A stretch of 64,000 nt of DNA, from NCBI RefSeq assembly GCF_011752065.1, contig NZ_JAAIJY010000005.1, forward strand, positions 62,001-126,000. Direction: 5' to 3'. Under the pieces are notes generated by a model. That model did no database searches and was not told the origin of the DNA. It was given only the letters and a program-made list of their open reading frames with translations. The position numbers and the translations under genes were made by a program. This document shows, in pieces, positions 38,584 to 64,000 of this stretch (positions are counted from its first letter, which is position 1; every line of letters begins with the position of its first letter). The stretch comes from Actinomyces sp. ZJ308 (lineage in GTDB: Bacteria; Actinomycetota; Actinomycetes; Actinomycetales; Actinomycetaceae).

Positions 38584-41500
38584 TCACTCCCCCGTGTGGT
38601 AGACGCCGTCGGCACCCAGCCGGGCGTCGGGATCCAGGAGCATGGCGGCCTCGACCTCGTGCGGATCGCGCTGCTTGGACTCCTCACCCAGGCGGCGGCC
38701 CTGGACCTGCTCGAACAGCGGGGCCCGACCGATCATTCCGGCGCGGCGGCGCCGGGTGCCGGCGGCAAGACGGGCATTGGCCGAGGCCAGCCACGCATCG
38801 ACCGCCTCCTGGCCCGCGGCCTGGCGCAGCGCGGCCTCGAAGGCACCGGGGTGGACGATCGCGATAAGACCCGAGACGTGCCCGAACCCCAGTGAGGTCA
38901 GCAGGCCCGCACGCACCGGGCCGGCGCCCGGAACGCGCCCGCCCTCACCGCCGCGGCCGGACAGGCGGATGGGCCTGCGTGGCCAGACCCAGAAGGCGTC
39001 CTTGGCCAGCGGGGCGTCGACGACGTCCAGGGAGGCGTTACCGGGAGCCACGCCGGAGGCGAGGATCTCGGTGAGGCCGGCGACCTGGAAGACCGCGGCG
39101 CCGCCCTTGGCGTGACCGGTGATGGTCTTCTGCGAGACCGCCACCAGCGAGTTGCCCTCGGAGCGGCCCAGGGCCCGCGCCAGACGCGTGTGCAGCTCGG
39201 ACTCGTTGGGGTCGTTGGCACCGGTGGAGGTGTCGTGCTTGGAGACCAGCGCGATGTCGTCGGCCTCCACACCCAGGGCCGCCAGGGCCTTGGCCAGGCG
39301 CGAGCCGCGTCCGCCGCGGCCGGCGCCCAGGGCCCCCAGTCCGGGAGCCGGGATCGAGGTGTGGGCGCCATCGGCGTAGGAGGAGACGAAGCCGACCACA
39401 CCGGCGACCGGCAGGCCCAGCCGGGCCGCGACCGAGCCACGGGCCAGGATCACGGTGCCGCCGCCCTCGGCCTCGACGAAGCCGCCGCGTCGACGGTCGT
39501 TGGCGCGCGAGAAGTGACGGTCGGAGATGCCCTTGGCGCGCATGGCCGCGGCCTCCGCGGTGGCGTTCATGTTGCCGAAGCCGACGACCGACTCGATGGA
39601 GATGTCGTCGATGGCTCCGGCCACGACGACGTCGGCCTTGCCCAGGGCGATCTTGTCCCAGCCCTCTTCGATGGAGACGGCCGCGGTGGCGCAGGCGCTC
39701 ACCGGCTGGACCATGGCGCCGTAGCCGCCGATGTAGGACTGCATGACGTGGGCGGCCACGACGTTGGGCAGCGCCTCCTGGAGAATGTCGCTGGGACGCT
39801 CCTCCCCCAGGAACCGGCCGACGAACATCTTGCGCATCGACTCCATGCCGCCGAACCCGGTGCCCTGCGTGGAGGCCACGTCGGAGGGGTGGACGGCCTT
39901 GAGCAGCTCGGCCGGGGTGAAGCCGGCTGACAGGAAGGCGTCGACGGCGGTGACCAGGTTCCACGAGGCGATCGGGTCCATGCCCTGGGTCATCGAGGCG
40001 GGGATGCCCCAGCGCTCCGGGTCGAAGTCGCGCGGGAACTGACCGCCCACCGTGCGCGACAGCGCCGCGCGGCGCGGCACCCGGGCCAGCGAGCCGGCCA
40101 GGCGGGTGACGGTCCACTCGCCGGTCTCGGCGTCGGGCACCACGAGGGTGTGCTCGGGATCGGAGGCCTCGATGGTGCGGGCCGTGGCCTCGTCGGGAAC
40201 CGACAGGGTGATGTCGTGGTCGAGGTAGACGGTGACCTCCTCGTCGGCGATGGGGGCGATGACTCCGTCGTCGACGAACTCGCGGATGCCGCAGCGGGCC
40301 ACGACCTCGTCACGGTAGCGGTCCAGGATGTCGGACTCCTCGACCATCTCGCCGTCGGTGTCGTACCAGCCGGCCTTGGGGCTGTCCTGCCAGGTGAGTA
40401 GGCCCATGCCCCAGGCGAGCTCGAGGACGCCGGCGGCGGTCAGGTCGACGTCCTCCCCGCCGCTCATGCCGAGCTCGGCCTCGCGGCGCGTGCGCCCCGA
40501 GCCCCAGGTGGAGACCTCTCCGGTGGAGATGATGACGACGAGGTCGTCGAGGTCGGCGCTCACCTCACCCCACTGGGGGGCGGTGGGCTGGGTCGGGACG
40601 ACCGGGGTGGGCAGGGCCTTGATGACGGCCGGGGCCTCGGTCTCCTCGGTGGGGGCGGCCGCCTGGGCGGCCGCGTTCTCACGCAGGGCCACGAAGTCGA
40701 TGTCGTCGCCCAGGCCGCCGGTCAGATCGGCGTCCACGGGGGCCTGAGCCGCCCGGGTGCGCACCTCGGTGGTGCACAGGTCGGTCAGCTCGGAGGCGAT
40801 CTCCTCGGTGGTCCAGGTGCGGACCCCGGCGGCCTCGACCGCGGCGACCAGCGGGTCGTTGCCGCCCATGAGGCCGGTGCCCCTCACCCAGCCGATGCGC
40901 GGGTGGGCCAGCGTCACGCGCTGGGCCCAGGCCCGCTCGGACGACCAGCGGTTGGCGATCGCGTCCAGGGCGGACTTGACCTCGCCGTAGGCCCCGTCGC
41001 CCCCGAAGGTGCCCCGGTTCGGGGACCCGGGCAGGACCACGTGGAGCCGGTGGTCGACGTGGGTGTCGGTGCCGATCGCGCTCAGGGCCGCGATGGTGCG
41101 CTCCACCGACCACAGCAGCAGACGGGTCTGGGCCTCCGCGGCCGGGCCGGCGTCGGCCAGCGTGCCGGAGACGCGCGGTGCGGCGAAGGGGAACAGGAGG
41201 GTGGGGACCAGCGCCTCCTTGACGACCTTGGTGGAGCCACCGGAGGTAACCACCTGGTCGTTGCCGATCCACTCCGCCAGGGCGTCGACGTCGCGGTAGG
41301 AGGACAGGTTCGCGGGAACCATCCACAGCTTGGCGCCGGCCGCGGCGTGCTCACGGTAGAGAGTGGTGGCGAAATCAAGGCGCTCGTGGGTCAGGCGCGA
41401 GCTGGTGGCCACCACGGTGGCGCCGCCGGACAGGAGATCCCCGGCGACGGCCGCCGCGATCGAGCCGGGGGCCACGCCGGTGACGACGGCGACGTCCTCG

Positions 41501-44500: not shown

Positions 44501-47500
44501 GCCACCCAGCCGGTGACGTTGATCGTGGGGCTGGTGGTGGCCGCGGCGGCCTGCAGCTGGTGGAGGGTGAGGTGCAGGTCGATGGTGTGGTCCAGGTGGA
44601 CCGCACCGAGCAGGCCCTCGATGAGCGGCATGCCGTCCTCGACGACGCTGCCCAGGGCCGCGTAGACCACCGGCCAGCAGGGGCCGAGCAGGGCGTCGGG
44701 AACGAAGGGGGCGGCCGAGAGGTCCACGGGCAGCGCGTCGGCCGTCACCGAGGCGTGGTCGTGGCCCAGGGTGCTCGCCAGCGTGAAGGATCCGTGGATG
44801 GTGCCGAAGGGCTGGGTGGCGGGGCGGCCCAGGGCGTCCGTGGCGCCGGACTGCGCGGGGCGGACCTCGGGCAGGTGGTCGACGTCGTCGCCGGTGATGG
44901 ACACGGCGCCCACACCGGCGGTGGCGCGCAGCAGGTCGTTCATGGTCTCGCTGATGCGCTCGGGGTCGACCAGCGGGGCGGCGCCGTCCCAGGCGCGGGC
45001 CAGTCGCAGCGGGACCACGAGGCGGCGCACGGCGTGGATCCTCTCGCCTCCGGGAGTTCCGTCCCAGTGGGTGTCGAGGTGGATGTCGAGGTCGTAGGCG
45101 TCCTCGGCGACGTCCGGGCGCGCGACGACGTTGTAGGCGTCATCGCTCAGGACGGTGGCGGGGTTGACCGTCAGGTGGCCGTTCCACAGGACGTGAGGGG
45201 CGACCTGGACGAGCTCCTTGGCGTCGGCAACGGGGGCGGCCAGGGCCCCGTCGGCCAGGGCGGGATCGGCGCCCAGGCGGCCGGCGGCCTCCTGCTCACC
45301 GGTGCCGGCGTCCTGGAGGGCCTCGACGGCGGCGGTCTCGAAGCGGCCCAGCAGCTCGCCGACGGGCTCGTTGATGGTCGTGATGCCGGCGACGGCCACG
45401 GGACCGGGGATGATGCGCACCTGGTCGGCGGTGTAGCGCGGGTCCTGTGACTGCCACAGGGAGTCGGTTCCCCACCAGCGCAGGATGTCGGCGTCGACCA
45501 CGGGAACGAAGGGCACGGGCTTGGGGTGCTTGCGGCACAGGTCGACGAACCAGGCGGCGTCGACGGGCTCCACGAGGGTGGAGGCGGACGACGGGTAGCG
45601 CTCGGCCAGGGCGGCCAGGGCGGCGTCGGAGTCGATGACGGCGTCGTAGTCGGCGAAGAGCGTGGGGATCTCGCCGTGGTCAGCCCGACTCAGGCGGGCC
45701 TCGATGCGGTGCAGCAGGTCGAGGAAGCGGTCGTACCAGCCCTCGTCGGCCCAGTCGGCTCGGGTGGCGGGGCGGCCCTCGTGCGGGGCGACGCACAGCT
45801 CGGCGTAGCGGGTGGCCCACTGAAGGTAGGTCATCTCCTCGACGTCGCCGAAGTAGGGCTTGGCGGTCTTGGCCAGGGCGTCGATCATCTCCTGACGGCG
45901 AGCGGCCATGGCGGCCTCGTCACCGGCGAGCTCCTGGATGAGGCGCGAGGCCCGGGCCGAGGAGTTGTCGATCTCGTAGAGGTCGGCGCGCAGGTGGGAC
46001 AGGCCCGAGGTCATGCCGCCGATGGACTCCCCGGAGGCGACCCAGCCGCCCTCGACCCCGGAGTCCTCGGGGATCCCGGGGGTGTCGACGAGCAGCTGCT
46101 TGACGTCGTCGTTGGTCTTGGCCTCCAGGCAGGTCATGGCGGCGGTGCCGATCATGACACCGTCGACGGGGGCCGCGGCCGTTCCGTAGGCCTCGGCCCA
46201 GCGACCGGTGAGGTAGTCGGCGGCGCGGGTGGGCGTACCGATACCGCCTCCGACGACGAGCACGACGTTGTTCACGGCGCGGATGGCGTCGTAGGTGGCC
46301 AGGAGCATGGTGTCCAGGTCCTCCCACGAGTGGTGGCCACCGGCGTGCCCGTCCTCGATCTGGATGATGACGGGGCTGTTGGGCACGGCGCGCGCGATGG
46401 CCAGCACCTGGCGGATCTGGTCCACGGTGCCGGGCTTGAAGGCGATGTAGGGGAAGCCCTCGGCGTGGAGGCGCTCGAGCAGCGCGGTGGCCTCGTCGAG
46501 CTCGGGGATGCCCGCGGAGATGGTGATGCCGTCGATGGGGGCGCCGCCGGCGCGGGCCTTGGACAGCAGACGCTGGGTACCCAGGTGCAGGTTCCACAGG
46601 TAGCGGTCCATGAACATGGCGTTGAAGGCCGCGGTGCGGCCGGGCTCGAGCGCCTCCTCCAGGCCCTCGAGGTTCTCCGTCAGGACGGCGGGGGTGGTCT
46701 GCCCGCCGCCGGCGAGCTCGGCCCAGTAGCCGGCGTTGGCGGCGGCCGCCACGATGGCGGGATCCACCGTGGTGGGGGTCATTCCGGCCAGGAGGACGGC
46801 GCTGCGGCCCGTCAGGCGGGTGAAGGCCGTGTCCAGGGTGAGGCGGCCGTCGGGCAGGCGGGTGATGCGCGGCGCGAAGCGGGAGCGGTCGACGCTGGGC
46901 CTGGGGGCGGCGCCGGTGCGGTCGAGGTCGTCGATGGCCTGGGCGGTCCCTGCGGGCACGACGGTCGTGCCGGTGCCGGCCACGATGCCCTCGGTGAGAC
47001 GGACCAGGACGTTGCCCGGCCCCAGGTCCAAAACGGTGCGCACCGGGTCGGCCGAGCCGGTCCCCAGGGCGCCCGTGACCAGGCCGGGCCAGTCGACCGG
47101 GTCGATGAGCACGGCGGTGGCCAGGTCGCGGGCCAGCTTCTCGTCCAGGCCGCAGGCGGCCGCCCAGGTGGCGACGTCGTCGACGGCGCCGGCCAGCAGC
47201 GGGGTGTGGAAGGGCACCGAGGTGGTGAGGAACTCGGTGACCGGGTTCAGGACCGCGCCTCCGCGGCGGCGGTCCTTGCGGGCCTTGGCGCTGCGGGCGG
47301 CGGCGGCCTCCAGAGCGGTGACGACGCGCTCGAGGTCGGCGGGGCTCCCGGAGAGGATGTGGGCCTGGAGCCCGTTGGTGACGCCCACGGAGATCCTCTC
47401 GGAGCCGGGTACCCGGGCCAGGACGGCGTCGAGCACCGAGCGGGTCACGCCGCGCACTGAGAGCATCGGGGTGGACTCCCCCACCGTGCCCAGGTCGAGG

Positions 47501-48165
47501 CGGCGGGTGGTCCGGGTGGCGGCGGCACCGATGAGGCGGGCGATGGCGTGGACCTGGACGACGCTTTCGCGGTCCCCGGCCCGTACGGCCTCAAGGAGAC
47601 TGACGCCCAGGACGCCCTGGGAGTGGCCGATGGCAGCCATCGGGGCGTGGGCCGTGGGGTCGATGCCGGCTGCCGGCAGCGAGGCAAGGGCGGCGTGCTG
47701 GGCCATGAGGATGCCGGGCACGGAGACGTCGGCGCCGTCGGCGGTGGTGCGGTGCTGGGGCACCACCGGAGCGGCCGCGTCGTCCAGGAGCCGTGAGCCG
47801 CGCGGGGTCACGGTGAGCAGGTCGGTGGCCACGGGGGCCAGGCGCTCGGACACGGCCCGGTCGACCGCCACGGCGTCATCGGCCAGGGCCTGGTCCAGGG
47901 CGACCAGGTCGGCGAGCGTCTGGCGCCAGGGGGTGGCCTGGCCTCCGAAGGTGATGATGTAGGGCTCGCCTCCGCTCAGGCGCTCAGCGATGGTGGTCGC
48001 GGGGCTGGGGGCTTGCGAGGTCGTATGCACGGTAGTGGTGTCCTTCGGTGTTGCGACGGCGTGGTCGGAGGTCTCGGAACGGTTACCAGAACTGGGATCG
48101 GATGAGGACGGAGGAGCTGACTGCGAGTGGGAGTCGGCCTGGGATCTAGAGGGGGATGTTGTCAT
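38584..48165 (-). CDS. fas: Type I fatty acid synthase, multifunctional
   Basis: A 3193-residue FAS-I that makes long-chain acyl-CoA. Domains in order: acetyltransferase (AIGHSQGVLGVS, about residue 175); enoyl reductase (GITISAGIPELD, GHAGGHHSWEDLD, about 530-620); dehydratase hot-dog region (GDFNPIHTSYNAAH and PLVHGMWLS, about 1310); malonyl/palmitoyl transferase (AFAGHSLGEYTAL, about 1515); ACP (GVSSRRNQLLMDLG, arm-bearing Ser about 1900); ketoreductase (AVVTGVAPGSIAAAVAG, about 2225); ketosynthase (VSACATAAVSIEEGWD about 2825, HDTSTGANDPNE about 2980, ITGHAKGGAA about 3020). ATG 48165 overlaps accD by 20 bases; GTG 48030 (GAAGGA upstream) is an alternative. An Ala/Pro linker precedes ACP. 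Confidence 0.95.
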   Translation of the reverse strand: MTTSPSRSQADSHSQSAPPSSSDPSSGNRSETSDHAVATPKDTTTVHTTSQAPSPATTIAERLSGGEPYIITFGGQATPWRQTLADLVALDQALADDAVAVDRAVSERLAPVATDLLTVTPRGSRLLDDAAAPVVPQHRTTADGADVSVPGILMAQHAALASLPAAGIDPTAHAPMAAIGHSQGVLGVSLLEAVRAGDRESVVQVHAIARLIGAAATRTTRRLDLGTVGESTPMLSVRGVTRSVLDAVLARVPGSERISVGVTNGLQAHILSGSPADLERVVTALEAAAARSAKARKDRRRGGAVLNPVTEFLTTSVPFHTPLLAGAVDDVATWAAACGLDEKLARDLATAVLIDPVDWPGLVTGALGTGSADPVRTVLDLGPGNVLVRLTEGIVAGTGTTVVPAGTAQAIDDLDRTGAAPRPSVDRSRFAPRITRLPDGRLTLDTAFTRLTGRSAVLLAGMTPTTVDPAIVAAAANAGYWAELAGGGQTTPAVLTENLEGLEEALEPGRTAAFNAMFMDRYLWNLHLGTQRLLSKARAGGAPIDGITISAGIPELDEATALLERLHAEGFPYIAFKPGTVDQIRQVLAIARAVPNSPVIIQIEDGHAGGHHSWEDLDTMLLATYDAIRAVNNVVLVVGGGIGTPTRAADYLTGRWAEAYGTAAAPVDGVMIGTAAMTCLEAKTNDDVKQLLVDTPGIPEDSGVEGGWVASGESIGGMTSGLSHLRADLYEIDNSSARASRLIQELAGDEAAMAARRQEMIDALAKTAKPYFGDVEEMTYLQWATRYAELCVAPHEGRPATRADWADEGWYDRFLDLLHRIEARLSRADHGEIPTLFADYDAVIDSDAALAALAERYPSSASTLVEPVDAAWFVDLCRKHPKPVPFVPVVDADILRWWGTDSLWQSQDPRYTADQVRIIPGPVAVAGITTINEPVGELLGRFETAAVEALQDAGTGEQEAAGRLGADPALADGALAAPVADAKELVQVAPHVLWNGHLTVNPATVLSDDAYNVVARPDVAEDAYDLDIHLDTHWDGTPGGERIHAVRRLVVPLRLARAWDGAAPLVDPERISETMNDLLRATAGVGAVSITGDDVDHLPEVRPAQSGATDALGRPATQPFGTIHGSFTLASTLGHDHASVTADALPVDLSAAPFVPDALLGPCWPVVYAALGSVVEDGMPLIEGLLGAVHLDHTIDLHLTLHQLQAAAATTSPTINVTGWVAALEESSAGRVVDVRLELTDASDGTIVALLRERFAIRGRASGNAVPSAPELAGGTGRETAPAARRILRRTTVTAPADMTAFARVTGDFNPIHTSYNAAHVAGMDAPLVHGMWLSATAQQVAASAAADGSRHVLAGWTYVMTGPVELGDDVEITVERTGLVVGGGYVLEVVCRINGEVVSRGTAVTTPEPTAYIYPGQGIQAPGMGLDEMSSSRAAREVWERADAHTRAELGFSVINLVRDNPTEMTARGVTYRHPEGLLNLTQFTQVALATVAMATTARLAEAGALVENAAFAGHSLGEYTALSAYGRVMPVETTISIVFQRGSTMHSLVPRDADGASNYRMGALRPNQAGIKADEVEAYVTSISQETGEFLQIVNHNLAGVQYAVAGTIKGLDALAADARAKAKARGGKNPFMFVPGIDVPFHSEVLRPGVPEFRGRLLELVPDDLDVERLVGHYVPNLVARPFALTQDFARSILEVVPSEPIEEILADWDSWVKRPTELARVLLVELLAWQFASPVRWIETQEVLLSSPSEGGLGIEHIVEVGLAGSPTLANLATNTLRLPQHAGRHVTVHNARRDEARVLATDTDPAVELTEPEFDVPTTEEPAAEASAPAEAAAEQAPASAAEPAPAAAPAAGGPVDDLPFGATDALTALLAHASRIRPEQIGATDTTETLTNGVSSRRNQLLMDLGTELELASIDGAADADMTALAATVAKGAPGYKAFGPVLTEAIRVGLGRLLGPSGVRASRIADRVTGTWGLGQGWVSHVTAALFLGTREGASMRGEDLASLGSSAPLTSAGAVDTLIDAAVQAVAADHGVSVSKPSAGGAGGAVVDSAALDAFAQSVTGGEGVLATTARTLLDALGLAEKATVPADADDEAARTRAALTALDAELGAGWVKSVTPAFTPERAVLIDDRWATAREDVARLGSGETDLDASRHLLDPERFVGLGQAVADHATWWAGQVKGSQLADAAERAAILSEIAQAAPQAPQAGGPTVRWSEDVAVVTGVAPGSIAAAVAGDLLSGGATVVATSSRLTHERLDFATTLYREHAAAGAKLWMVPANLSSYRDVDALAEWIGNDQVVTSGGSTKVVKEALVPTLLFPFAAPRVSGTLADAGPAAEAQTRLLLWSVERTIAALSAIGTDTHVDHRLHVVLPGSPNRGTFGGDGAYGEVKSALDAIANRWSSERAWAQRVTLAHPRIGWVRGTGLMGGNDPLVAAVEAAGVRTWTTEEIASELTDLCTTEVRTRAAQAPVDADLTGGLGDDIDFVALRENAAAQAAAPTEETEAPAVIKALPTPVVPTQPTAPQWGEVSADLDDLVVIISTGEVSTWGSGRTRREAELGMSGGEDVDLTAAGVLELAWGMGLLTWQDSPKAGWYDTDGEMVEESDILDRYRDEVVARCGIREFVDDGVIAPIADEEVTVYLDHDITLSVPDEATARTIEASDPEHTLVVPDAETGEWTVTRLAGSLARVPRRAALSRTVGGQFPRDFDPERWGIPASMTQGMDPIASWNLVTAVDAFLSAGFTPAELLKAVHPSDVASTQGTGFGGMESMRKMFVGRFLGEERPSDILQEALPNVVAAHVMQSYIGGYGAMVQPVSACATAAVSIEEGWDKIALGKADVVVAGAIDDISIESVVGFGNMNATAEAAAMRAKGISDRHFSRANDRRRGGFVEAEGGGTVILARGSVAARLGLPVAGVVGFVSSYADGAHTSIPAPGLGALGAGRGGRGSRLAKALAALGVEADDIALVSKHDTSTGANDPNESELHTRLARALGRSEGNSLVAVSQKTITGHAKGGAAVFQVAGLTEILASGVAPGNASLDVVDAPLAKDAFWVWPRRPIRLSGRGGEGGRVPGAGPVRAGLLTSLGFGHVSGLIAIVHPGAFEAALRQAAGQEAVDAWLASANARLAAGTRRRRAGMIGRAPLFEQVQGRRLGEESKQRDPHEVEAAMLLDPDARLGADGVYHTGE

Positions 48166-49765
48166 GCTTCTTGGGCGAGTCGGGGCGGGCGTCGTTCTTG
48201 GCGCGCAGCGCGGCCAGCGAGTCGACGATGACGCTGCGGGTGTCCTCGGGGGCGATGACGGCGTCGATCTCACCGATGGCCACGGCCTTGTCCGGGTTGA
48301 TGACGGCGTCGGTGTACTCGGCCACGAGCCGCTCGTGCTCGGCGGTGGCGGCCTCCTCACCCTGCTCGTCGCGGACCTTGGCCAGGTCCCGGCGGTGGAT
48401 GATGCCGACGGCTCCGGCAGCGCCCAGGACGGCGATCTCGGCCCCCGGCCAGCAGAAGTTGAGGTCGGCGCCGATGGCCTTGGAGCCCATGACGATGTAG
48501 GCACCACCGTAGGCCTTGCGCAGGACGATCGTCACCAGCGGCACGGTGGCGGTGGCGTAGGCGTTGATGACCTTGGCGCCGCGGCGGATGATGCCGGCGT
48601 GCTCCTGCTCGGCGCCGGGGCGGTAGCCGGGCACGTCGACGAAGGTGACCACCGGCAGACCGAAGGCGTCGCAGAAGCGCACGAACCGGGCGAGCTTCTC
48701 GGAGGCGTCGACGTCCAGGGTTCCGGCGTCCACCAGCGGCTGGTTGGCGACGATTCCCACCGGGTGGCCCTCGAAGCAGGCGAAGCCGACCACGACGTTG
48801 GCGGCGAACTCCTCCTGGACCTGGACGAGCTCACCGTGGTCGACGACCGCCGAGACCACCTCGACGACGTCGTAGGCCTGGCGGGTGGAGGCAGGGACGA
48901 TCTCGCCGACGCCGCGGGCGGCCTCGGCATCGGCCTGGGCGTCGGAGTCGTCGTAGGCGTACAGGGGGGCGTCGACCTCGGCCGACGAGGGCAGGTAGGC
49001 CAGGAAGCTGCGGACCTGTCCCAGCGCGTCCTCCTCGTCCTCGGCCACGTAGTGGACGACGCCGGAGACCGAGCCGTGGATCTTCGCGCCGCCGAGGTCC
49101 TCGGCGCTGATCTGCTCACCGGTGACGGCGCGTACGACGTCGGGGCCGGTGACGAACATGTGGGAGGCCTGGCGGGTGGCGATGACGAAGTCGGTCAGGG
49201 CCGGGCTGTAGACGGCGCCGCCGGCGCAGGGGCCGAGGATGACGCTGATCTGCGGGACCAGGCCGGAGGCGGCGCAGGTACGGTTGAAGATGCGCCCGTA
49301 CTGGCGCAGGGCGCCCACGCCCTCCTGGATCTTGGCGCCGCCGGAGTCGATGAGCCCGATGACGGGAATGCGCAGTCGCAGGGCGTCGTCCAGGAGACGG
49401 ACGATCTTGTCGCCCTCGATGGTGCCCAGGGCGCCGCCGGAGACGGAGAAGTCCTGGGAGTAGACGGCCACCTGGCGGCCGTCGATCTGGCCGAAGCCGG
49501 TGACGACGCCTGAGGGGCGGGCCTTCTCCCCCGCGCCGGAGCCGGTGTATCGGCCGATCTCCAGGAAGGTGGAGTCGTCGAGCAGGTCGTTGATGCGCTC
49601 CCGGGCGGTGCGCTTGCCCTTGGCGTGCTGGCGGGCGGCGGCGCGCTCCTCGGCCTCCCGGTCGACGCGGGCGATGCGCTGGCGGAAGGCCGAGGTGGAG
49701 GGCGAGTCCGCCATCGTGGTTCCCTGTGCCGGCGTGCTGGAGCCGGGGCTGGCGTCGGTGCTCAC
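48146..49765 (-). CDS. accD: Acyl-CoA carboxylase beta (carboxyltransferase) subunit
   Basis: A 539-residue carboxyltransferase of the AccD/PccB family. Motifs include GKRTARERINDLLD, SGGALGTIEGDKI, LIDSGGAKIQEGVGAL (acyl-CoA site), VILGPCAGGAVYSPALTDF, GRPAGIVANQP-like PVGIVANQPLVDAG and AYGGAYIVMGSK. Paired with the biotin-carrying subunit encoded three bases upstream, it would supply malonyl-CoA for FAS-I. GTG 49765 is preceded by GAGGAGG; an internal ATG at codon 18 is an alternative start. The 3' end overlaps the fas start by 20 bases. Acetyl- rather than propionyl-CoA preference is inferred from the fas linkage. Confidence 0.92.
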   Translation of the reverse strand: MSTDASPGSSTPAQGTTMADSPSTSAFRQRIARVDREAEERAAARQHAKGKRTARERINDLLDDSTFLEIGRYTGSGAGEKARPSGVVTGFGQIDGRQVAVYSQDFSVSGGALGTIEGDKIVRLLDDALRLRIPVIGLIDSGGAKIQEGVGALRQYGRIFNRTCAASGLVPQISVILGPCAGGAVYSPALTDFVIATRQASHMFVTGPDVVRAVTGEQISAEDLGGAKIHGSVSGVVHYVAEDEEDALGQVRSFLAYLPSSAEVDAPLYAYDDSDAQADAEAARGVGEIVPASTRQAYDVVEVVSAVVDHGELVQVQEEFAANVVVGFACFEGHPVGIVANQPLVDAGTLDVDASEKLARFVRFCDAFGLPVVTFVDVPGYRPGAEQEHAGIIRRGAKVINAYATATVPLVTIVLRKAYGGAYIVMGSKAIGADLNFCWPGAEIAVLGAAGAVGIIHRRDLAKVRDEQGEEAATAEHERLVAEYTDAVINPDKAVAIGEIDAVIAPEDTRSVIVDSLAALRAKNDARPDSPKKHDNIPL

Positions 49766-56101: not shown

Positions 56102-56320
56102 GCCCGGCAGCCTCCCACGTCCTCCGGATGCGGCGGAGGCGTCGCAGCCGTCCACCCGGAGTGAGATGGGTGAAGCGATTTGTATGGCATCTATGAACAT
56201 GCCCGGCAGCCACCTGTCTGGCACGTCACGTCTGACGAGACCGTCAGCAGCATCGGCGCCAGGTGAAACGAATATCACGTACAGGTGACTGTTGCTCGAT
56301 CAACTTACCTGGAACTCAGT

Positions 56321-56387
56321 CGTACCAGGGGGTTTCCAATCCACGTCGATCCTGGTACGCTCGTACCAATCCGGTACAGGCGTACCA
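56321..56387 (+). promoter_or_regulatory. Operator cluster (CGTACCA repeats) upstream of arcA
   Basis: TGGTACG-CT-CGTACCA (56353-56368) is a perfect 16-bp dyad. CGTACCAGG at 56321-56329 mirrors CCTGGTACG at 56351-56359, and a further CGTACCA stands at 56381-56387 after GGTAC at 56373-56377. The half-site thus occurs three times forward and at least once reversed within 67 bases. A cooperatively binding regulator of the arginine genes is likely; it does not look like the AT-rich ArgR box. Confidence 0.6.
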
Positions 56388-56406
56388 CTTCAATCGTCAT
56401 AGCGCG

Positions 56407-56448
56407 TGATGCGCATCATGATCCACATCAACGACACAGCGTTGTGTC
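56407..56448 (+). promoter_or_regulatory. Palindromes next to the arcA start
   Basis: TGATGCGCATCA (56407-56418) is a 12-bp perfect palindrome. GACACA-N4-TGTGTC (56433-56448) is a second dyad ending 12 bases before the arcA ATG and overlapping the ribosome-binding region (GAGGGAG). They may bind a regulator or fold in the leader. The rest of the 359-base gene-free stretch (56102-56460) also repeats CATGCCCGGCAGCC at 56099 and near 56198. Confidence 0.4.
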
Positions 56449-56460
56449 AGAGAGGGAGTC

Positions 56461-57684
56461 ATGGATCTTTCCGTAGATTCCGAAATCGGCAGGCTCCGGC
56501 AGGTCATCCTGCACAGGCCTGGCAGTGAGATGCTCCGACTCACTCCGCAGAACAAGGAGCACCTCCTCTTCGACGACGTCCTGTGGCTCGAGCGGGCCCA
56601 GGAGGAGCACGACCAGTTCGCGCGGGTGCTGACCGACCGCGACATCGAGGTGCTCTACCTCGGCGACCTTCTGGCCGAGACTCTGGAGGTGGCCGAGGCC
56701 AGGGACTACGTCCTGGACCGCGTCGTCAACGAGAACACCAACGGCCCCAGCGCCGCCGAGCCGCTGCGGACCCTGGCGCAGGGACTGTCCGGCGCAGACC
56801 TGGCCGAGGTGCTCATCGCCGGCATCACCAAGGCCGAGCTGCTCGAGCGGACCTCCTGCCCCGACTCGCTGGTTCTGGCGTCCATGGATGACGACGACCT
56901 GCTCCTGGCGCCGCTTCCCAACCACCTCTTCACCCGCGACACGTCCTGCTGGATCTACAACGGCGTGTCCATCAACTCGATGATGATGCCGGCCAGGCAG
57001 CGCGAGACCATCAACTACGAGGCGATCTACCGCTGGCACCCCCGGTTCGCGAGTGCGGACTTCCCCGTGTGGTCCGAGGGCACCCAGGCCGGTCCCGCCA
57101 CCGTCGAGGGCGGCGACGTCCAGATCATCGGCAACGGCTCCGTCCTGGTCGGGGTCTCGGAGCGCACCACCGCCCAGGGCATCGAGAGGCTCGCCAGTCG
57201 GCTCTTCGCCGGTGGGAGGGTCGACCGGGTGGTCGCCGTCGAGATGAACCGGACGCGCGCGCAGATGCACCTGGACACCGTCATGACCATGGTCGACGTC
57301 GGCACCTTCACCACCTACGGAGGCCTGGGGATGCTGCCGACGCTCACCCTGCGCCCGGGCGAGGGCGGGCAGATCAACGTCACCCGCAACGACCCCGAGG
57401 ACATGTACCGCGTCATCGCCCAGGCGTTGGGCATCGACGACCTCACCATCCTCATCACTCCCCAGGACTCCATGGCCGCGGCTCGTGAGCAGTGGGACGA
57501 CGGCTCCAACTCGCTGGCCATCGCCCCCGGTGTCATCGTCACCTACGAGCGCAACGTCAACACCAACGAGTACCTCACCTCTCGCGGCATCGAGGTCCTG
57601 ACCATCCCCGGCTCGGAGGTCGGCCGCGGCCGCGGCGGCCCGCACTGCATGAGCTGTCCGACCCTGCGGGACCCGGTCGCCTGA
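56461..57684 (+). CDS. arcA: Arginine deiminase
   Basis: A 407-residue enzyme that converts arginine to citrulline and ammonia in the cytoplasm. Visible motifs are [13 protein letters not shown] at the N terminus, [13 protein letters not shown], a catalytic-pair region [24 protein letters not shown] (catalytic His and Asp) and the C-terminal [13 protein letters not shown] with the catalytic Cys. A GAGGGAG Shine-Dalgarno precedes the ATG. It opens the arc operon and would raise local pH and yield ATP through the next two enzymes. No arginine/ornithine antiporter ArcD gene is adjacent. Confidence 0.95.
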
Positions 57685-57763
57685 ACCGGCCCCGCCCATC
57701 AAGCGCCTTCGGCGTCAATGAAGTAAGTACACCCCATCACCCACACTGGACGAAGGAGTCCTC

Positions 57764-58771
57764 ATGACCCATCCCCTGCACAACCGCAGCTTCCTCAAGG
57801 AGCTCGACTTCACCGCCAAGGAGTGGAGCATCCTGCTCCAGCTGGCGGCCCAGCTCAAGGAGGACAAGAAGGCCGGCCGCGAGGTCAAGCGGCTGACCGG
57901 CAAGAACATCGCCCTCATCTTCGAGAAGACCTCCACGCGTACCCGCTGCTCCTTCGAGGTCGCCGCCTACGACCAGGGCGCGCAGGTCACCTACCTGGAC
58001 CCCTCGGGCTCCCAGATGGGTCACAAGGAGTCCGTGGCGGACACCGCCCGGGTCCTGGGTCGTTTCTACGACGGCATCGAGTTCCGCGGCAAGAAGCAGG
58101 AGCACGTCGAGGCACTGGCCGAGCTCTCCGGCGTGCCGGTGTGGAACGGGCTGACCGATGAGTGGCACCCCACCCAGATGCTCGCCGACCAGCTGACCAT
58201 GCTGGAGCACGCGGGCAAGCCGATCGAGGAGATCTCCTTCGCCTACCTCGGAGACGCCCGCAACAACGTCGCCAACTCGTTGCTCATCTCGGCGGCCCTC
58301 ATGGGGATGGACGTGCGGATGGTGGCTCCCAAGGAGCTGCAGACGCCTCCCGAGGTCGTGGCCCAGGCCGAGAAGCTGGCCCAGGACAGCGGAGCCCGCA
58401 TCCTCGTCACCGACGACGTCGCCGAGGGCGTCAAGGGCGTCGACTTCCTCTACACGGATGTGTGGGTCTCGATGGGTGAGCCCAAGGAGGTCTGGGATCA
58501 GCGCATCGCCCTGCTGCGTCCTTACCAGGTCAATGCCGAGATGGTGGAGGCCACCGGCAACCCCGATGTGAAGTTCCTCCACTGCCTGCCCGCCTTCCAC
58601 GACCGCCACACCACCGTGGGCGAGGATATCTTCGCCAAGACCGGCATGGACGGGCTGGAGGTGACCGACGACGTCTTCGAGACCGAGCGCAACGTCGCCT
58701 TCGACCAGGCCGAGAACCGCATGCACACCATCAAGGCCGTCATGGTCGCAACCCTCGGAGAGTGGGACTGA
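57764..58771 (+). CDS. arcB: Ornithine carbamoyltransferase (catabolic)
   Basis: A 335-residue enzyme that splits citrulline into ornithine and carbamoyl phosphate when working in the arginine deiminase pathway. The carbamoyl-phosphate site is [15 protein letters not shown], the conserved region [16 protein letters not shown] follows, and the ornithine site is [27 protein letters not shown] is also typical. AAGGAG lies seven bases before the ATG. The gap to arcA is 79 bases with a small hairpin (GCGCC-TTC-GGCG). Position shows a catabolic role. Confidence 0.95.
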
Positions 58772-58774
58772 GTC

Positions 58775-59755
58775 GTGAGAATCGTTGTTGCCCTCGGCGG
58801 AAACGCTCTTCTGCGCAGGGGCGAGAAGCCCGACGCCAGCACCCAGATTCACAACGTCGAGGTTGCGGCGCGTGAGCTGGCGAAGCTGGCGGAGAAGCAC
58901 GAGCTGGTCCTCACCCACGGAAACGGCCCTCAGGTGGGCGTCCTGGCGCTGGAGTCCGCCAACGACGAGCGGCTCTCGGAGCCCTACCCCTTCGACACCC
59001 TCGGCGCACAGACCCAGGGCATGATCGGCTACTGGCTGCTGCAGGCCATGCAGAACGCCCTGCCGGGTCGCCATGTGGCCGCGATGGTCAACCAGACCCT
59101 GGTTCTGGCCGGCGACCCCGCCTTCTCCAACCCGACCAAGTTCGTCGGCGAGGTCTACACCAAGGAGGAGGCGGAGAAGCTGGCCGAGGAACGCGACTGG
59201 GTGGTCAAGCCCGACGGCGAGCACTACCGCCGCGTCGTCGGCTCCCCCAAGCCGCAGAGGGTGATCGAGACCCGGCTGGTGCGAACGCTTCTGGAGGCCG
59301 GAGCCATCGTCATCTGCTCCGGCGGAGGCGGGGTCCCCGTCATCCGCAGCGCCGAAGGCAAGCTCAAGGGCATCGAGGCCGTCATTGACAAGGACCTGAC
59401 CGCATCGGTCCTGGCCGAGGCACTGGAGGCCGATGCGCTCCTCATCCTCACCGACGTCGACGGCGTCTATGAGGACTTCGGGACCGAGAACCAGAAACAG
59501 GTTCCACGAGCCACGCCGGCGGCGCTGCGAGCCATGGGTCTTCCCAGTGGATCCATGGGACCAAAGGTCGAGGCGGTGTGCCGATTTGTCGAGCTGACCG
59601 GAGACATGGCGGCAATCGGTCGTCTTGAGGACGCCGTTTCCATCATTGACGGACAGGCAGGGACTATCGTGACCCCTGGGGGCAACTACGGTGGCCCCGA
59701 CGATATCCATCCCCCGATTCCCGAGCAAATTGACACTCGCATTCGCAGGGCCTGA
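58775..59755 (+). CDS. arcC: Carbamate kinase
   Basis: A 326-residue kinase that makes ATP from carbamoyl phosphate and ADP, the last step of the arginine deiminase pathway. Signatures are VVALGGNALLRRGEKP, LTHGNGPQVGVLALE, ICSGGGGVPVI, VIDKDLTASVLAEAL and SMGPKVEAVCRFVE. GTG 58775 starts three bases after the arcB stop. After the stop a 6-bp dyad (59754-59759 with 59770-59775) and a 213-base region separate it from the amidinotransferase gene. Confidence 0.95.
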   Translation: MRIVVALGGNALLRRGEKPDASTQIHNVEVAARELAKLAEKHELVLTHGNGPQVGVLALESANDERLSEPYPFDTLGAQTQGMIGYWLLQAMQNALPGRHVAAMVNQTLVLAGDPAFSNPTKFVGEVYTKEEAEKLAEERDWVVKPDGEHYRRVVGSPKPQRVIETRLVRTLLEAGAIVICSGGGGVPVIRSAEGKLKGIEAVIDKDLTASVLAEALEADALLILTDVDGVYEDFGTENQKQVPRATPAALRAMGLPSGSMGPKVEAVCRFVELTGDMAAIGRLEDAVSIIDGQAGTIVTPGGNYGGPDDIHPPIPEQIDTRIRRA

Positions 59756-59859
59756 CCGACATGACGGCATCGGTCCTGCAAGGAGGTGGTGAGAGCCGTC
59801 AACCACATATGACCATGCCATGGTTCAGCCGTCATTCTTTTACACAGATACTCCTGCGG

Positions 59860-59888
59860 TTACTTTTGAAGTTCCTTCAGGATAGAAT
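59860..59888 (+). promoter_or_regulatory. Possible promoter in the arcC-amidinotransferase gap
   Basis: TAGAAT (59883-59888) lies 17 bases after TTACTT (59860-59865) in an unusually AT-rich stretch. The -35 match is weak. An AAGGAGGT sequence at 59780 has no convincing gene behind it. The 213-base gap otherwise holds nothing recognisable. Confidence 0.35.
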
Positions 59889-59968
59889 GAGAGCGTTGAA
59901 TCGTAGACATATCCATCTGTCTCAATTCATCACACACCACACAACGAGCACAAAGGAGTGACTCACTC

Positions 59969-61096
59969 ATGACGAAGATCGTCAACTCTTGGAACGACTT
60001 CGACCCGCTCAAGCACGTCATCGTCGGGCGCGCAGACTTCTCGGTTATTCCTCCCGAGGAGCCCGCCACCTCCGAGAAGGTGCCGATCGACTCCGAGATG
60101 CGCGGTATGTGGGGCCCCCGCCCCACCGCCACCGTCGAGGCCGCCAACGAGCAGCTCGACAACTACGTCAAGATCCTCGAGGGACTGGGCGTCAAGGTGG
60201 ACCGCCCCACGCCGCTGCAGTGGAACCAGGCCATCCAGACGCCTGACTTCCGCACGGAGTCGGGCTTCACCCAGATGCCCCCGCGCGACATCCTGCTCAC
60301 CATCGGTGATGAGATCATGTCGTCGGCCAACTCGTTCCGGTGCCGGTACTTCGAGTACCTCGCCTACTGGCCCCTCATGAACGAGTACTTCGAGGAGGAC
60401 CCGGAGTTCAAGTGGACCCAGGCTCCTCGCCCGCGGCTGACGGACAAGTCCTACAAGCACAACTACTACGACGAGCGGATCTCCCTGGAGGAGCGCCTTG
60501 AGCGCACTGCCGCCAAGGACTTCGTGACCACTGAGGTCGAGCCGATGTGGGACGCCGCCGACGTCATGCGCGTGGGCAAGGACCTGTTCATCCAGCACGG
60601 TCTGACCACCAACCGCAAGGCGATGGAGTGGTTCAAGCGCTACTACCCCGACCTGCGGGTGCACGCGGTGAACTTCCCCGGCGACCCCTACCCGATCCAC
60701 ATCGACGCCACCTTCGTGCCGCTGCGGCCCGGGCTGATCATCAACAACCCGCACCGCCGCCTGCCCGAGGAGCAGCGCAAGATCTTCGAGGCCAATGACT
60801 GGCAGATCGTCGACGCCGCTCCCCCGGCTCACGAGGTTCCGCCGCCGCTGTGCTACTCCTCCGTCTGGCTGTCCATGAACTGCCTCGTCATCGACCACAA
60901 GACCGTGTGCGTCGAGGCCAGTGAGGTCCACCAGATGGAGCAGATGGACAAGCTGGGCATGAACGTCATCCCGGTTCCCTTCCGCGACGCCTACGCCTTC
61001 GGCGGTGGTCTGCACTGCGCGACGGCGGACGTGTACCGCGAGGGTGGCTGTGAGGACTACTTCCCGAACCAGGTCGCTGACCCGACTCTGGTCTGA
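59969..61096 (+). CDS. Arginine:X amidinotransferase (AGAT/GATM/StrB family)
   Basis: A 375-residue member of the guanidino-group transferase branch, strongly like vertebrate L-arginine:glycine amidinotransferase along its full length. Aligned pieces are NSWNDFDPLKHVIVGRAD, MPPRDILLTIGDEI, EVEPMWDAADVMRVGKDLF, YPIHIDATFVPLRPGLI, VWLSMNCLVID and YAFGGGLHCATADV. The catalytic residues known in AGAT (Asp in DAAD, His in IHID, Cys in LHC) are all present. The reaction is arginine plus an amine giving ornithine plus a guanidino compound; the acceptor (glycine, lysine, an aminocyclitol or other) is not readable. AAAGGAG lies upstream. Ornithine released would enter the same pool as arcB product. 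Confidence 0.85.
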   Translation: MTKIVNSWNDFDPLKHVIVGRADFSVIPPEEPATSEKVPIDSEMRGMWGPRPTATVEAANEQLDNYVKILEGLGVKVDRPTPLQWNQAIQTPDFRTESGFTQMPPRDILLTIGDEIMSSANSFRCRYFEYLAYWPLMNEYFEEDPEFKWTQAPRPRLTDKSYKHNYYDERISLEERLERTAAKDFVTTEVEPMWDAADVMRVGKDLFIQHGLTTNRKAMEWFKRYYPDLRVHAVNFPGDPYPIHIDATFVPLRPGLIINNPHRRLPEEQRKIFEANDWQIVDAAPPAHEVPPPLCYSSVWLSMNCLVIDHKTVCVEASEVHQMEQMDKLGMNVIPVPFRDAYAFGGGLHCATADVYREGGCEDYFPNQVADPTLV

Positions 61097-61105
61097 TTCC
61101 AAGCG

Positions 61106-61148
61106 GGTGCGGGGCGGCGGCTCATGGATCGGGCTGCCGCCCCGCACC
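61106..61148 (+). terminator. Stem-loop after the amidinotransferase gene
   Basis: GGTGCGGGGCGGC (61106-61118) pairs perfectly with GCCGCCCCGCACC (61136-61148), extendable by a G-T pair and two more base pairs. It starts 10 bases after the stop codon. No T tract follows, so it may stop or only weaken transcription into the DMT gene, or protect the 3' end of the message. Confidence 0.6.
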
Positions 61149-61277
61149 GTTCCCGGCTCGGGTACTCGCAGCGCGGCTGCCGGACTCCCCGTGGAGGCGG
61201 AGAGAACCGGCCCGGCTGCACGAGGCCCAGCAATGATGCTGCGCCCGCCGGGAGAGAACTCAGGAGACACAACTGCC

Positions 61278-62291
61278 ATGTCACAGACTTCGTCTACCGA
61301 ATCCTCTGTCACAGAGTACGTGATGAACAAGAAGCTCGGCGCCGTTGCCATGCTTCTATCCGCCACCGGGATGGGGCTCGTCGGTACCATCAGCCGTGGT
61401 ACGACCGCTGGTCTCGCTGATGCCGACAAGGCCGTCATCGGATCGTTCCTGGCCTTCGGGCGTATGACCGTTGGACTGCTCGGCTTCATCCTCATTCTTG
61501 TCCTCACCGGAAAGACCGGACTCTTCCGGCGCACCCGCCTGAGCACCACCGTGATCCTGGGAGGGGTCAGTATCGGCCTGTCACTGGGCTGCTACATCTC
61601 CTCGACACTGATGACGTCGATCGCCAACGCCGTCTTCCTCATCTACACCGGCCCTCTGTTCTGTGCGCTGCTCGCACGCATCTTCCGTAAGGAGAAGATC
61701 AGCGTGCTTTCGGGGATCTTCCTGTCTCTTGTGTTCGTCGGCATGCTGCTGACCATCGGCATCATCGACTTCAAGAATGGAAGTCTGACCTTCGGGCTGG
61801 ACCTGTCGGCCTCGTCCCCCGAGTTCCCGCGCAAGAGCCTGGGAGATCTTCTTGGCCTGCTGTCAGGTGTCTTCTACGGCCTGGCGATGTTTTTCTACGG
61901 CTACCGCAAGGATGTTGACTCAGTTGTACGCGGCGTTTGGAACTTTTTCTGGGCGGCGTCTGCTACTCTGGTGATGTCAATCATCCTGCGCCCATGGCAT
62001 GGCGTTTCGTCCTTCACCTCCACCAACTGGATGTGGGCGGTGGCCCTCTTCCTCATCTGCGGCCTCTTCGCCCTGGGGTTCCTGGTTGTGGCGGGACGCA
62101 ACCTCCCTGCCGTGGAGTACTCGACGATCTCCTACTGGGAGTGTCCGGTTGCCATTCTGTGTGGTCTCCTTGTTTGGGGAGAGCAACTCACTCCCGTGGG
62201 AATGGTCGGGGGTCTGCTCATTGTCGGAGGCGGGCTGGCACCCATTGTCCTGGATGCCGTCACCCGGAGGGCCCGCGTCTCCGAGGCCTGA
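61278..62291 (+). CDS. EamA/DMT-superfamily permease
   Basis: A 337-residue protein with about ten membrane segments in two EamA halves (first at LGAVAMLLSATGMGLVGTI, second half beginning LGDLLGLLSGVFYGLAMFF). The final repeat includes EYSTISYWECPVAILCGLLVWGEQLTPVGMVGGLLIVGGG, of which the WGEQLTPVGMVGGLLI part is typical of EamA transporters. Such carriers export or import metabolites including amino acids. Its place after the amidinotransferase suggests transport of arginine, ornithine or the guanidino product (inference). ATG 61278 was chosen from the AGGAG about 12 bases upstream; the frame is open further upstream without similarity. Confidence 0.78.
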   Translation: MSQTSSTESSVTEYVMNKKLGAVAMLLSATGMGLVGTISRGTTAGLADADKAVIGSFLAFGRMTVGLLGFILILVLTGKTGLFRRTRLSTTVILGGVSIGLSLGCYISSTLMTSIANAVFLIYTGPLFCALLARIFRKEKISVLSGIFLSLVFVGMLLTIGIIDFKNGSLTFGLDLSASSPEFPRKSLGDLLGLLSGVFYGLAMFFYGYRKDVDSVVRGVWNFFWAASATLVMSIILRPWHGVSSFTSTNWMWAVALFLICGLFALGFLVVAGRNLPAVEYSTISYWECPVAILCGLLVWGEQLTPVGMVGGLLIVGGGLAPIVLDAVTRRARVSEA

Positions 62292-62301
62292 GCACCATGC
62301 C

Positions 62302-62351
62302 TTCCTGTCTGCCTGCGATGTATGCGCAGCTGAGTCGCAGGCAGACAGGAA
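62302..62351 (+). terminator. 17-bp perfect stem-loop between DMT and MFS genes
   Basis: The arms TTCCTGTCTGCCTGCGA (62302-62318) and TCGCAGGCAGACAGGAA (62335-62351) are perfectly complementary around a 16-base loop. The element begins 10 bases after the DMT stop. It lacks a T tract. A terminator or message-end stabiliser is likely. Confidence 0.6.
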
Positions 62352-62427
62352 TCGGCGTAATCATCCACGCATTATCACGAGTCCATACATAACATCGTCG
62401 ACATCGACCGAGCCGGAGCCGTAGGCT

Positions 62428-63792
62428 ATGAATACCGTCCACCTAGGAAGCACGACCGACCATCACCTGGATCCTGAGCGAGGTCTCGCACTGAGGCGTG
62501 CAGCAAAAGCAAGCTTCATCGGAAACTTCATCGAGTGGTTCGACTACGCCTCGTACGGTTATCTGGCCACCGTCATCGGCTTCGCTTTCTTCCCTGAGTC
62601 GGACAAGTCCGTCCAGCTGCTGTCGACGTACGCCGTATTCGCCATGTCCTTCATCCTGCGACCGATCGGGGCCGTCGTGTGGGGGGCCTGGGGTGATCGG
62701 TGGGGACGTCGCTGGGCTTTATCCTGGTCTATTCTCATTATGTCGGGGTCTACCTTCTTCATTGGGCTTCTTCCCACGTACTCTACTATCGGTATGTTAA
62801 GTGCCATCGGCCTGCTACTGCTGCGCATGGTCCAAGGCTTCTCGGCATCGGGCGAGTATGCAGGTGCTGGAACCTTCCTGGCTGAGTACGCACCCCCCTC
62901 GCGTCGAGGCATCTATACGTCCCTGGTTCCCGCATCCACCGCCTGCGGCTTACTTGCCGGCTCTCTCATGGTGACGGGGATGTTCACGGTACTGAGTGAC
63001 AGTGCCATGAACACCTGGGGGTGGCGCATTCCCTTCCTTCTGGCCGGCCCCCTAGGGCTAGTTGGCCGTTACATCCGGGTGCATTTGGAGGACTCGCCGG
63101 CTTACCAGGAGATGCGTGCCGAACTGCCCCAGGAGCCGAAGTCGTCAAGTTGGTCGGAACCATTACGCCTTCTTTTGCGGGATCACCTGCATGAGACACT
63201 CATCACCTTCGGTGTTTCTTGTCTCAATGCCGTTGCCTTCTACATGCTGTTGACCTACATGCCGACCTACGTTCACGAGGAACTTGGTTTCTCTCAGGAT
63301 ACTGCCACGCTGGCCACCTCGGTGATGCTTGTGGTTTATATTGCATCGATTTTCCTTATGGGGCATCTGTCTGATTCCTTCGGGCGTCGCCGGATGCTCA
63401 TCGCAGCCTGTGTTGCATTTATTGTGCTGACGATACCGTTGTTCCTAGTGATGACCAGGGCCCATGGAATGCTTCTGGTTGTGATCGCGTGTCAAATCGT
63501 TTTCGCGATCGCTCTCACGGCCAATGATGGAACGCTGGCAACCTTTCTGGCGGAATCGTTTCCGACCAACGTGCGATACTCAGGGTTTGCATTGTCCTTC
63601 AATGGAGCAAATGCACTCCTTGGGGGTACCACACCGTTCATAGTGACCTGGCTCATTAAGGTGACTGGCTCTACCTTGGCTCCTGCGGTTTATCTCACTG
63701 TGATCGCGTTGATCGCGATGGTGGCGATCTTCCAGTCCCGTACGATTCACGGGTCTGAGTTGACCGAGGAGCAGACTCAGCTGCCAACCTGA
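62428..63792 (+). CDS. MFS permease, metabolite:H+ symporter (MHS/ProP-like)
   Basis: A 454-residue twelve-helix transporter. The N terminus AAKASFIGNFIEWFDYASYG is the MHS family hallmark, GAWGDRWGRRWAL is MFS motif A between helices 2 and 3, and RMVQGFSASGEYAGAG lies in helix 4. A second GHLSDSFGRRRML marks the C-terminal half. Relatives carry proline, betaine, shikimate, alpha-ketoglutarate or citrate with protons. In this setting uptake of a guanidino compound or amino acid is a guess. The coding sequence has more A/T at third positions than the rest of the window; two sample 60-base lines count 30 G+C of 60. A 136-base gap with a strong stem-loop precedes it. Confidence 0.85.
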   Translation: MNTVHLGSTTDHHLDPERGLALRRAAKASFIGNFIEWFDYASYGYLATVIGFAFFPESDKSVQLLSTYAVFAMSFILRPIGAVVWGAWGDRWGRRWALSWSILIMSGSTFFIGLLPTYSTIGMLSAIGLLLLRMVQGFSASGEYAGAGTFLAEYAPPSRRGIYTSLVPASTACGLLAGSLMVTGMFTVLSDSAMNTWGWRIPFLLAGPLGLVGRYIRVHLEDSPAYQEMRAELPQEPKSSSWSEPLRLLLRDHLHETLITFGVSCLNAVAFYMLLTYMPTYVHEELGFSQDTATLATSVMLVVYIASIFLMGHLSDSFGRRRMLIAACVAFIVLTIPLFLVMTRAHGMLLVVIACQIVFAIALTANDGTLATFLAESFPTNVRYSGFALSFNGANALLGGTTPFIVTWLIKVTGSTLAPAVYLTVIALIAMVAIFQSRTIHGSELTEEQTQLPT

Positions 63793-63905
63793 GCAGACCC
63801 ATCAAGAGCAGTTGTCAACAAGTCGAACACAGTTTGCCTCTACGAGAGGTCATTATCACCGTCTTGTTACGGACAAGGCTGTCCAACCGTCGTAGGATGA
63901 TGGGC

Positions 63906-64000
63906 ATGGATGGTACAGATGCAGACGCGGTAAGCAACGACGCTGCTGCACATGCACGTTCTCGAACTGAATCTCGGGTCACACCACGAGGTGAGGACCG
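63906..64000 (+). CDS. Start of an unidentified gene, cut by the window edge (partial)
   Basis: An open frame starts at ATG 63906 (or ATG 63897/63900 in the same frame) and runs off the end: MDGTDADAVSNDAAAHARS, then RTESRVTPRGED. The composition is polar and there is no family motif yet. Positive residues near the end could lead into a helix-turn-helix, but too little is visible. Upstream, TAGGAT (63893-63898) could be a -10 box, and GGACA-AGGC-TGTCC (63871-63884) is a short dyad. The call is tentative. Confidence 0.3.
   Translation, partial: MDGTDADAVSNDAAAHARSRTESRVTPRGED

Follow-up and report, generated by a model that had tools for sequence, protein, structure and literature searches.

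Gene cluster in the window

A 64,000-nucleotide stretch of the 3.28 Mb genome of Actinomyces sp. ZJ308 (G000:C56:62001-126000, hereafter the window) carries an arginine deiminase gene cluster joined to an amidinotransferase of the arginine:glycine amidinotransferase (AGAT) type and to two permeases. Its neighbourhoods in oral and gut bacteria suggest that the amidinotransferase is run backwards and that creatine is taken apart for energy. Open reading frames (ORFs) and family scans placed arcA, arcB and arcC together on the forward strand, as they did all further genes of the cluster. The arginine deiminase gene arcA (56461..57684, 407 amino acids) scored 523.6 bits against NF002381 (cut-off 414) and 486.4 bits against TIGR01078, slightly below that model's cut-off of 489.1. 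It is followed by arcB (57764..58771, 335 amino acids), encoding a catabolic ornithine carbamoyltransferase (NF003286, 526 bits, cut-off 515), and by arcC (58775..59755, 326 amino acids, GTG start), encoding a carbamate kinase (NF009008, 449.6 bits, cut-off 361).

After 213 bases comes the AGAT-type gene (59969..61096, 375 amino acids), recognized from its ORF and structure-database homology and proposed here as a creatine:ornithine amidinotransferase. An EamA/DMT permease gene (61278..62291, 337 amino acids; putative sarcosine exporter or creatine importer) and a gene for a ProP-like, MHS-type MFS permease (62428..63792, 454 amino acids; putative creatine importer) complete the run, the latter scoring 374.5 bits against TIGR00883, below the model cut-off of 443.45. 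These six genes had been listed in a preliminary description of this DNA, and ORFs and family scans confirmed them with two amendments: the probable EamA start was moved to the ATG at 61278, which is preceded by AGGAG, and a TetR-type regulator gene was added after the MHS gene. Only the 5' part of the latter (63834..64000) lies before the window end, which truncates it; the whole ORF is at L002:9834-10631 (start codon uncertain), and its family was assigned via a homologue at locus L048.

The arginine/ornithine antiporter ArcD had been described as absent; indeed, none was found in the cluster, and the genome gave no match to TIGR00905 at E ≤ 1e-20 (other antiporter families were not searched). 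A scan of positions 56200-64000 returned no promoter-like sites (1.4 expected) and eight terminator-like sites (3.1 expected), mostly intragenic. No shared operator was evident by eye in the upstream sequences.

Kinship and active site of the amidinotransferase

No Pfam or NCBIfam model matched the amidinotransferase at E ≤ 0.001. Human AGAT (1jdx) aligned nearly end to end (residues 5-365 of 375, E = 1.2e-78), and SxtG, HsvA and the inosamine-phosphate amidinotransferase (1bwd) matched at E-values from 8e-60 to 7e-47. The active site was compared across 103 close relatives of > 70% identity. The catalytic D195, H244 and C350, equivalent to human Asp254, His303 and Cys407 in the numbering given, with Asn300 and Met302, in passages of PMC3684758 and PMC4887976, were present in all 103 and in seven of seven distant relatives. 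Full-length AGAT kinship with the catalytic Asp, His and Cys, as stated in the preliminary description, was therefore upheld. Positions aligned with human D170, D305, R322, S354 and S355 were likewise unchanged in 103/103. Given that these arginine-handling residues are kept, the AGAT mode of binding arginine and ornithine should apply here too.

The flap that gives the substrate site its shape reads D239-P-Y241-P-I243 and is followed by the catalytic H244. Y241 and I243 were found in all 103 sequences, in place of the N300 and M302 of AGAT proper; at these two variable places, five relatives of 40-43% identity carry F and S instead. Across the 103 sequences, 188 of the 375 columns were invariant.

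Distribution and conservation

Within the genus, 37 of 49 genomes carry the enzyme (88-100% identity); in the Gordonibacter family it was found in 67 of 138, fragments counted. In a tree of 64 rows, the window copy groups with those of Actinomyces johnsonii and Actinomyces sp. oral taxon 170. Among the 79 named loci kept (see below), which range from Actinomyces through Eggerthellaceae to Desulfosarcina widdelii, identity was 80-100%. Of 394 genomes sampled from the class, 25 matched, all but the window's own at ≤ 46% identity.

No other gene of the cluster is as well conserved as that of the enzyme; at L015, for example, the enzyme is 97% identical and arcC 78%. At the Adlercreutzia loci L096 and L097, arcA and arcC are 39-41%, arcB 54-55%, EamA 49% and MHS 52-54% identical. 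Compared with the Gordonibacter gene at L078, 92 of 155 fourfold sites and 314 of 375 residues are the same. Since the fourfold sites have diverged more than the protein, the enzyme's high similarity is more likely due to selection acting at the protein level. A recently acquired plasmid-borne gene was rejected as an explanation, all plasmid relatives (16 of 72,556 records at E ≤ 1e-40) being < 60% identical. A Photobacterium relative (59%, L227) has an EamA-like gene and an SSS symporter nearby, with no arc-gene match at E ≤ 1e-8.

A survey of named genomes gave 143 candidates, of which the best 80 were kept, representing 79 distinct loci. The clustered neighbours at these loci were MHS (66), EamA (64, two kinds pooled), TetR (56), arcC (40), arcB (39), arcA (35), creatininase (15) and a BCCT permease (7), all lower bounds since some loci stop at contig ends. 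Enzyme genes accompanied by EamA and/or MHS genes occurred in gut Eggerthellaceae, Mobiluncus and Cutibacterium namnetense, many of these loci having no adjacent arcABC. The enzyme is thus not special to plaque, one of the niches first suggested as perhaps relevant, being present in these taxa and in sulfate reducers.

Linkage to arginine deiminase genes and ArcD

For the comparisons within the genus, arcA was called strong when it exceeded the NF002381 cut-off, and ArcD was called when TIGR00905 was exceeded. The arcC gene lies directly upstream of the enzyme in 29 of 30 genus loci (L001, L003-L031), which rules out chance clustering, and a strong arcA lies within 6 kb of 28 of the 38 genus enzyme copies; conservation beside arcABC, named in the preliminary description as a check, is thereby established for the genus. 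Three of the ten remaining copies are near contig ends (G003, G009, G038), and some have arcB-arcC next to the enzyme but no arcA. Strong arcA was present in 35 of 37 enzyme-positive and 1 of 12 enzyme-negative genus genomes (Fisher p = 3e-8; kinship is ignored here and in all p-values below). A deiminase match at E ≤ 1e-40 was found in 49/49, many falling below the NF002381 cut-off. At this same E-value, arcA was found in 61 of the 67 Gordonibacter-family genomes with the enzyme and in 15 of the 71 without it (p = 8.7e-18).

A linked ArcD is usual, though not universal, in arginine deiminase operons. ArcD was called in 18 of 49 genus genomes, all of which carry the enzyme, and in none of the 18 was it seen beside the enzyme: it lay ≥ 127 kb away in nine and, in the other nine, on a separate contig at a distance that is not measurable. 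In 15 of the 18, ArcD was ≤ 1.6 kb from a strong arcA other than the enzyme-linked one; a genome outside these 18, G040, has ArcD in two pieces below cut-off. Given this separate ArcD-linked arcA, members of the genus often hold two arginine deiminase sets, one serving external arginine and one coupled to the amidinotransferase.

Creatininase linkage and twin genes

The creatininase identity of one neighbour cluster was assigned from one representative protein, which scored 329.6 bits against TIGR04448 (cut-off 235) and matched PF02633 and creatinine amidohydrolase (1j2t, E = 4.6e-87). None of 14 control genomes exceeded the TIGR04448 cut-off. Of the 49 genus genomes, 14 have creatininase; every one of them also has the enzyme (Fisher p = 0.011), and in each the two gene starts were 2.0-3.6 kb apart. 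In the Gordonibacter family it was found in 28 of 138 genomes, 24 of them with the enzyme (p = 1.1e-5). For 24 of the 64 named loci without creatininase, the whole genome was searched and five had a creatininase over cut-off elsewhere: one with an intact enzyme beside it (L158), one with enzyme pieces only (L157) and three with the order EamA2-creatininase-MHS2 and no enzyme match beside it (L159-L161).

The type strain of Eggerthella lenta has two enzyme genes that are identical over 1125/1125 bases (L148:9906-11030, L149:9892-11016), with exactly shared flanks of just 39 and 33 bases. The first copy lies in the order AGAT-EamA-c8-MHS-TetR and the second in AGAT-EamA2-c8-creatininase-BCCT-MHS2. 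Twelve enzyme pairs were compared in all; DNA was 100% identical in five and protein in eight, the lowest protein identity being 98.1%. In nine of these pairs one copy lies in a creatininase cluster, and the proteins were identical in seven, the others sharing 99.5% and 98.1%. The copies look as if they had been homogenised by gene conversion in several lineages; in our view this suggests that either cluster requires the same protein. A single protein serving both clusters speaks in turn for a single substrate, namely the compound that creatininase forms.

Pairs with 100% identical DNA and differing neighbours were also seen in G513, G542, L051 and L100. Such identical repeats probably break assemblies, and many half genes lie at contig ends. 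The gene c8 encodes a conserved protein of ~189 amino acids (L078:12565-13134 and relatives); in Eggerthellaceae it occurs in clusters of either kind, flanked by EamA on one side and by MHS or creatininase on the other. Its representative matched no Pfam or NCBIfam model, and its AlphaFold2 model (mean pLDDT 82, pTM 0.64) had no PDB match at E ≤ 0.001.

Loci in sulfate reducers

Matches at E ≤ 1e-60 were found in 21 of 242 genomes of the Desulfosarcina order, with up to three copies each. Of 18 loci read, nine (L209, L211, L214, L217, L219-L223; identity ≥ 63%) have the flap DPYPIHID; the other nine, at 41-55% identity, depart from it, and three of these (L213, L216, L218) adjoin arcB and arcC. 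The L209 enzyme is 72% identical with the same flap, adjoins arcC and is near arcB. The left part of this locus encodes a protein resembling the C-terminal region of the sarcosine oxidase alpha subunit (1vrq, E = 1e-49), a 223-amino-acid protein, an FAD oxidoreductase (PF01266) that is weakly SoxB-like (sarcosine oxidase 1y56, E = 1.6e-11) and two electron transfer flavoprotein (ETF) subunits. Its right part holds a PAS-LuxR regulator followed by the amidinotransferase and arcC, then a nucleotide-binding protein and arcB. Such a gene set would suit a reaction that releases sarcosine.

The nucleotide-binding protein (~450 amino acids, weak CobW or LpxK matches, L209:9818-11167) has homologues at L102, L213, L216, L218 and L220; at all these sulfate-reducer loci, it lies near the enzyme and arcB and/or arcC. 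At two such loci (L102:408-2387 and L211:9119-11209), the enzyme is near a protein of the M24 creatinase/prolidase fold and a member of the arylmalonate decarboxylase family (EutA-like at L102).

Proposed pathway

Hosts and their diets supply creatine and creatinine as abundant nitrogen compounds, and the latter serves as the standard kidney marker. AGAT is the enzyme that starts creatine synthesis in human kidneys. Computation yielded the genes, their linkage and conservation, the near identity of the twin copies and the finding that ArcD was not seen beside the enzyme; the substrate, the direction, the permease roles and the ATP yield we infer. The amidinotransferase probably converts creatine and ornithine to arginine and sarcosine, feeding ArcABC, so that the cluster would be an arginine deiminase pathway supplied by creatine rather than free arginine. 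Creatine would be imported by the MHS and/or EamA permease, its amidino group would form an amidino-enzyme at Cys350 and pass to ornithine, and sarcosine and arginine would result. ArcA would then convert arginine to citrulline and ammonia, ArcB would make carbamoyl phosphate and regenerate ornithine, and ArcC would yield ATP, ammonia and CO2. Ornithine would thus be a carrier reused each round; an ArcD antiporter would therefore not be needed, and sarcosine could exit via one of the two permeases. In some relatives, creatininase and a second permease set would let creatinine enter too. The predicted net reaction, protons omitted, is creatine + 2 H2O + ADP + Pi -> sarcosine + 2 NH3 + CO2 + ATP + H2O.

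This pathway is supported most strongly by the linkage to creatininase and by the identical gene pair in E. lenta. In gnotobiotic mice, E. lenta lowered colonic creatine, sarcosine and dimethylarginine, and its genome was reported to contain creatininase, the genes from creatine onward, including creatinase, being reported as not found (passages of PMC11149096). The arginine deiminase pathway contributed 58.4% of modelled E. lenta ATP in PMC10234575, and the stem "creatin" has no occurrence in the main text of that paper. An MFS permease, CreT, was described in a portion of PMC8864220 as needed for growth on creatine in Corynebacterium glutamicum ATCC 14067. The preliminary description had suggested a further branch of arginine metabolism, in which a guanidino compound is made or, in reverse, used. 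The branch survives; because of the creatininase linkage, the separate ArcD-linked arcA and the fall of creatine with E. lenta, catabolic use of creatine in the reverse direction is favoured and synthesis disfavoured.

Several observations weigh against the creatine pathway. Its weakest points are the window genome, which gave no creatininase match at E ≤ 1e-20, and sarcosine, the predicted product, which also fell in the colonized mice (PMC11149096, as excerpted). Creatininase was not found in 23 of 37 enzyme-positive genus genomes, and 4 of the 28 creatininase-positive Gordonibacter-family genomes show no enzyme; creatininase alone cannot tell creatine from guanidinoacetate. G032 and G042 carry the enzyme without a strong arcA, 6 of the 67 enzyme-positive Gordonibacter-family genomes lack an arcA match at E ≤ 1e-40 (some of these six, and of the four above, may be due to fragmented assemblies), and arcB-arcC-enzyme runs occur without an adjacent arcA match (e.g., L038, L040, L055, L102). 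Outside the genus, arcABC is frequently not adjacent (arcC at 40/79 and arcA at 35/79 named loci). Among the 18 sulfate-reducer loci, none had an arcA match at E ≤ 1e-8 and just one had sarcosine-type genes.

Alternative explanations

The same cycle could run on guanidinoacetate (glycocyamine) as donor with glycine as product, the relatives' creatininase acting on the ring form of guanidinoacetate or otherwise. Parts of PMC4887976 name this compound as a donor to both human AGAT and CyrA, and the residues aligned with the arginine-handling positions of AGAT are kept. It is nonetheless an unlikely substrate, given the fall of creatine in E. lenta mice (PMC11149096, in part), the replacement of human N300 and M302 by Y and I in 103/103 flaps and the sarcosine-oxidase-like genes at L209, that single locus only.

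Decidedly improbable is synthesis, in which arginine and an amine would give an exported guanidino compound and ornithine that goes to ArcB or out of the cell. The characterised AGAT relatives covered in excerpts of PMC4887976 run in this direction in nature and two permeases are available, but such a reaction would compete for the arginine required by ArcABC. It also sits poorly with a gene that is linked to ATP-yielding catabolism and that, in relatives, is linked to creatininase as well, and no plainly biosynthetic gene was seen among the identified recurring neighbours (many single neighbours were not identified). We give equally little credence to a generalist salvaging amidino groups from creatine, guanidinoacetate, homoarginine and guanidinobutyrate into arginine: human AGAT is promiscuous, accepting glycine and lysine (PMC4887976, in part), whereas the fixed flap and the 188 invariant columns look like one tight substrate. 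An arginine deiminase operon for free arginine that uses other antiporters is weakened by the other arcA copies that carry ArcD in many of the same genomes.

On balance, we lean towards fermentation of creatine (and, with creatininase, of creatinine) by reversed AGAT and ArcABC at one ATP per creatine in numerous Actinomycetota of the mouth, the gut and other host sites and in some sulfate reducers, and towards this being the missing creatine-removal step of E. lenta. If true, it would explain a published creatine loss whose genes were reported not found, give E. lenta and its kin a fermentable arginine source besides free arginine and allow microbiome data to predict creatine loss from genes of common human bacteria. 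It would also put an enzyme family known for making guanidino compounds to reversed, catabolic use.

Other features of the window

An FMN riboswitch (33870-34019, reverse strand; Rfam RF00050, 86.7 bits) is located a short distance upstream of a gene that encodes an NMT1/THI5-like domain. A 3307-amino-acid protein with type I fatty acid synthase domains is encoded at 38584-48507 on the reverse strand.

Comparison with known systems

The window enzyme shares with human AGAT (GATM; 1jdw, 1jdx) length-wide homology, the catalytic Asp/His/Cys and the arginine-site residues. It differs in its flap (D-P-Y-P-I versus human D-P-N-P-M), its place in a catabolic operon and its proposed reverse use on creatine. 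Amidinotransferase reactions are called reversible in passages of PMC4887976, which name guanidinoacetate as a donor for StrB1 as well, and AGAT reactions are written as equilibria in part of PMC9103764. CyrA, AmtA, StrB, SxtG and HsvA belong to the same superfamily, but the flaps of CyrA (D-I-F-P-S) and AmtA (D-M-H-P-M) differ, and CyrA, AmtA and StrB1 are biosynthetic according to these passages of PMC4887976, unlike the catabolic role proposed here.

With the usual arginine deiminase operon, the cluster has arcA, arcB and arcC in common, and presumably the same three reactions; it differs by having the amidinotransferase and two other permeases and no ArcD. The reversed-AGAT and ArcABC route would be a new variant of this pathway. 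A search of open-licence PMC titles and abstract starts (preprints and subscription papers outside its scope) found no description of bacterial creatine-to-arginine transamidination. Known routes use creatininase and creatinase, creatinine deaminase, or the CreT/CrnA/CshA/HyuB system of C. glutamicum, with which relatives of the window cluster share creatininase; the parallel between CreT, needed there for growth on creatine (PMC8864220, in part), and the window MHS permease would be one of role. The amidino group of creatine ends as urea in the known creatine routes, whereas here it would pass to ornithine and then yield ATP.

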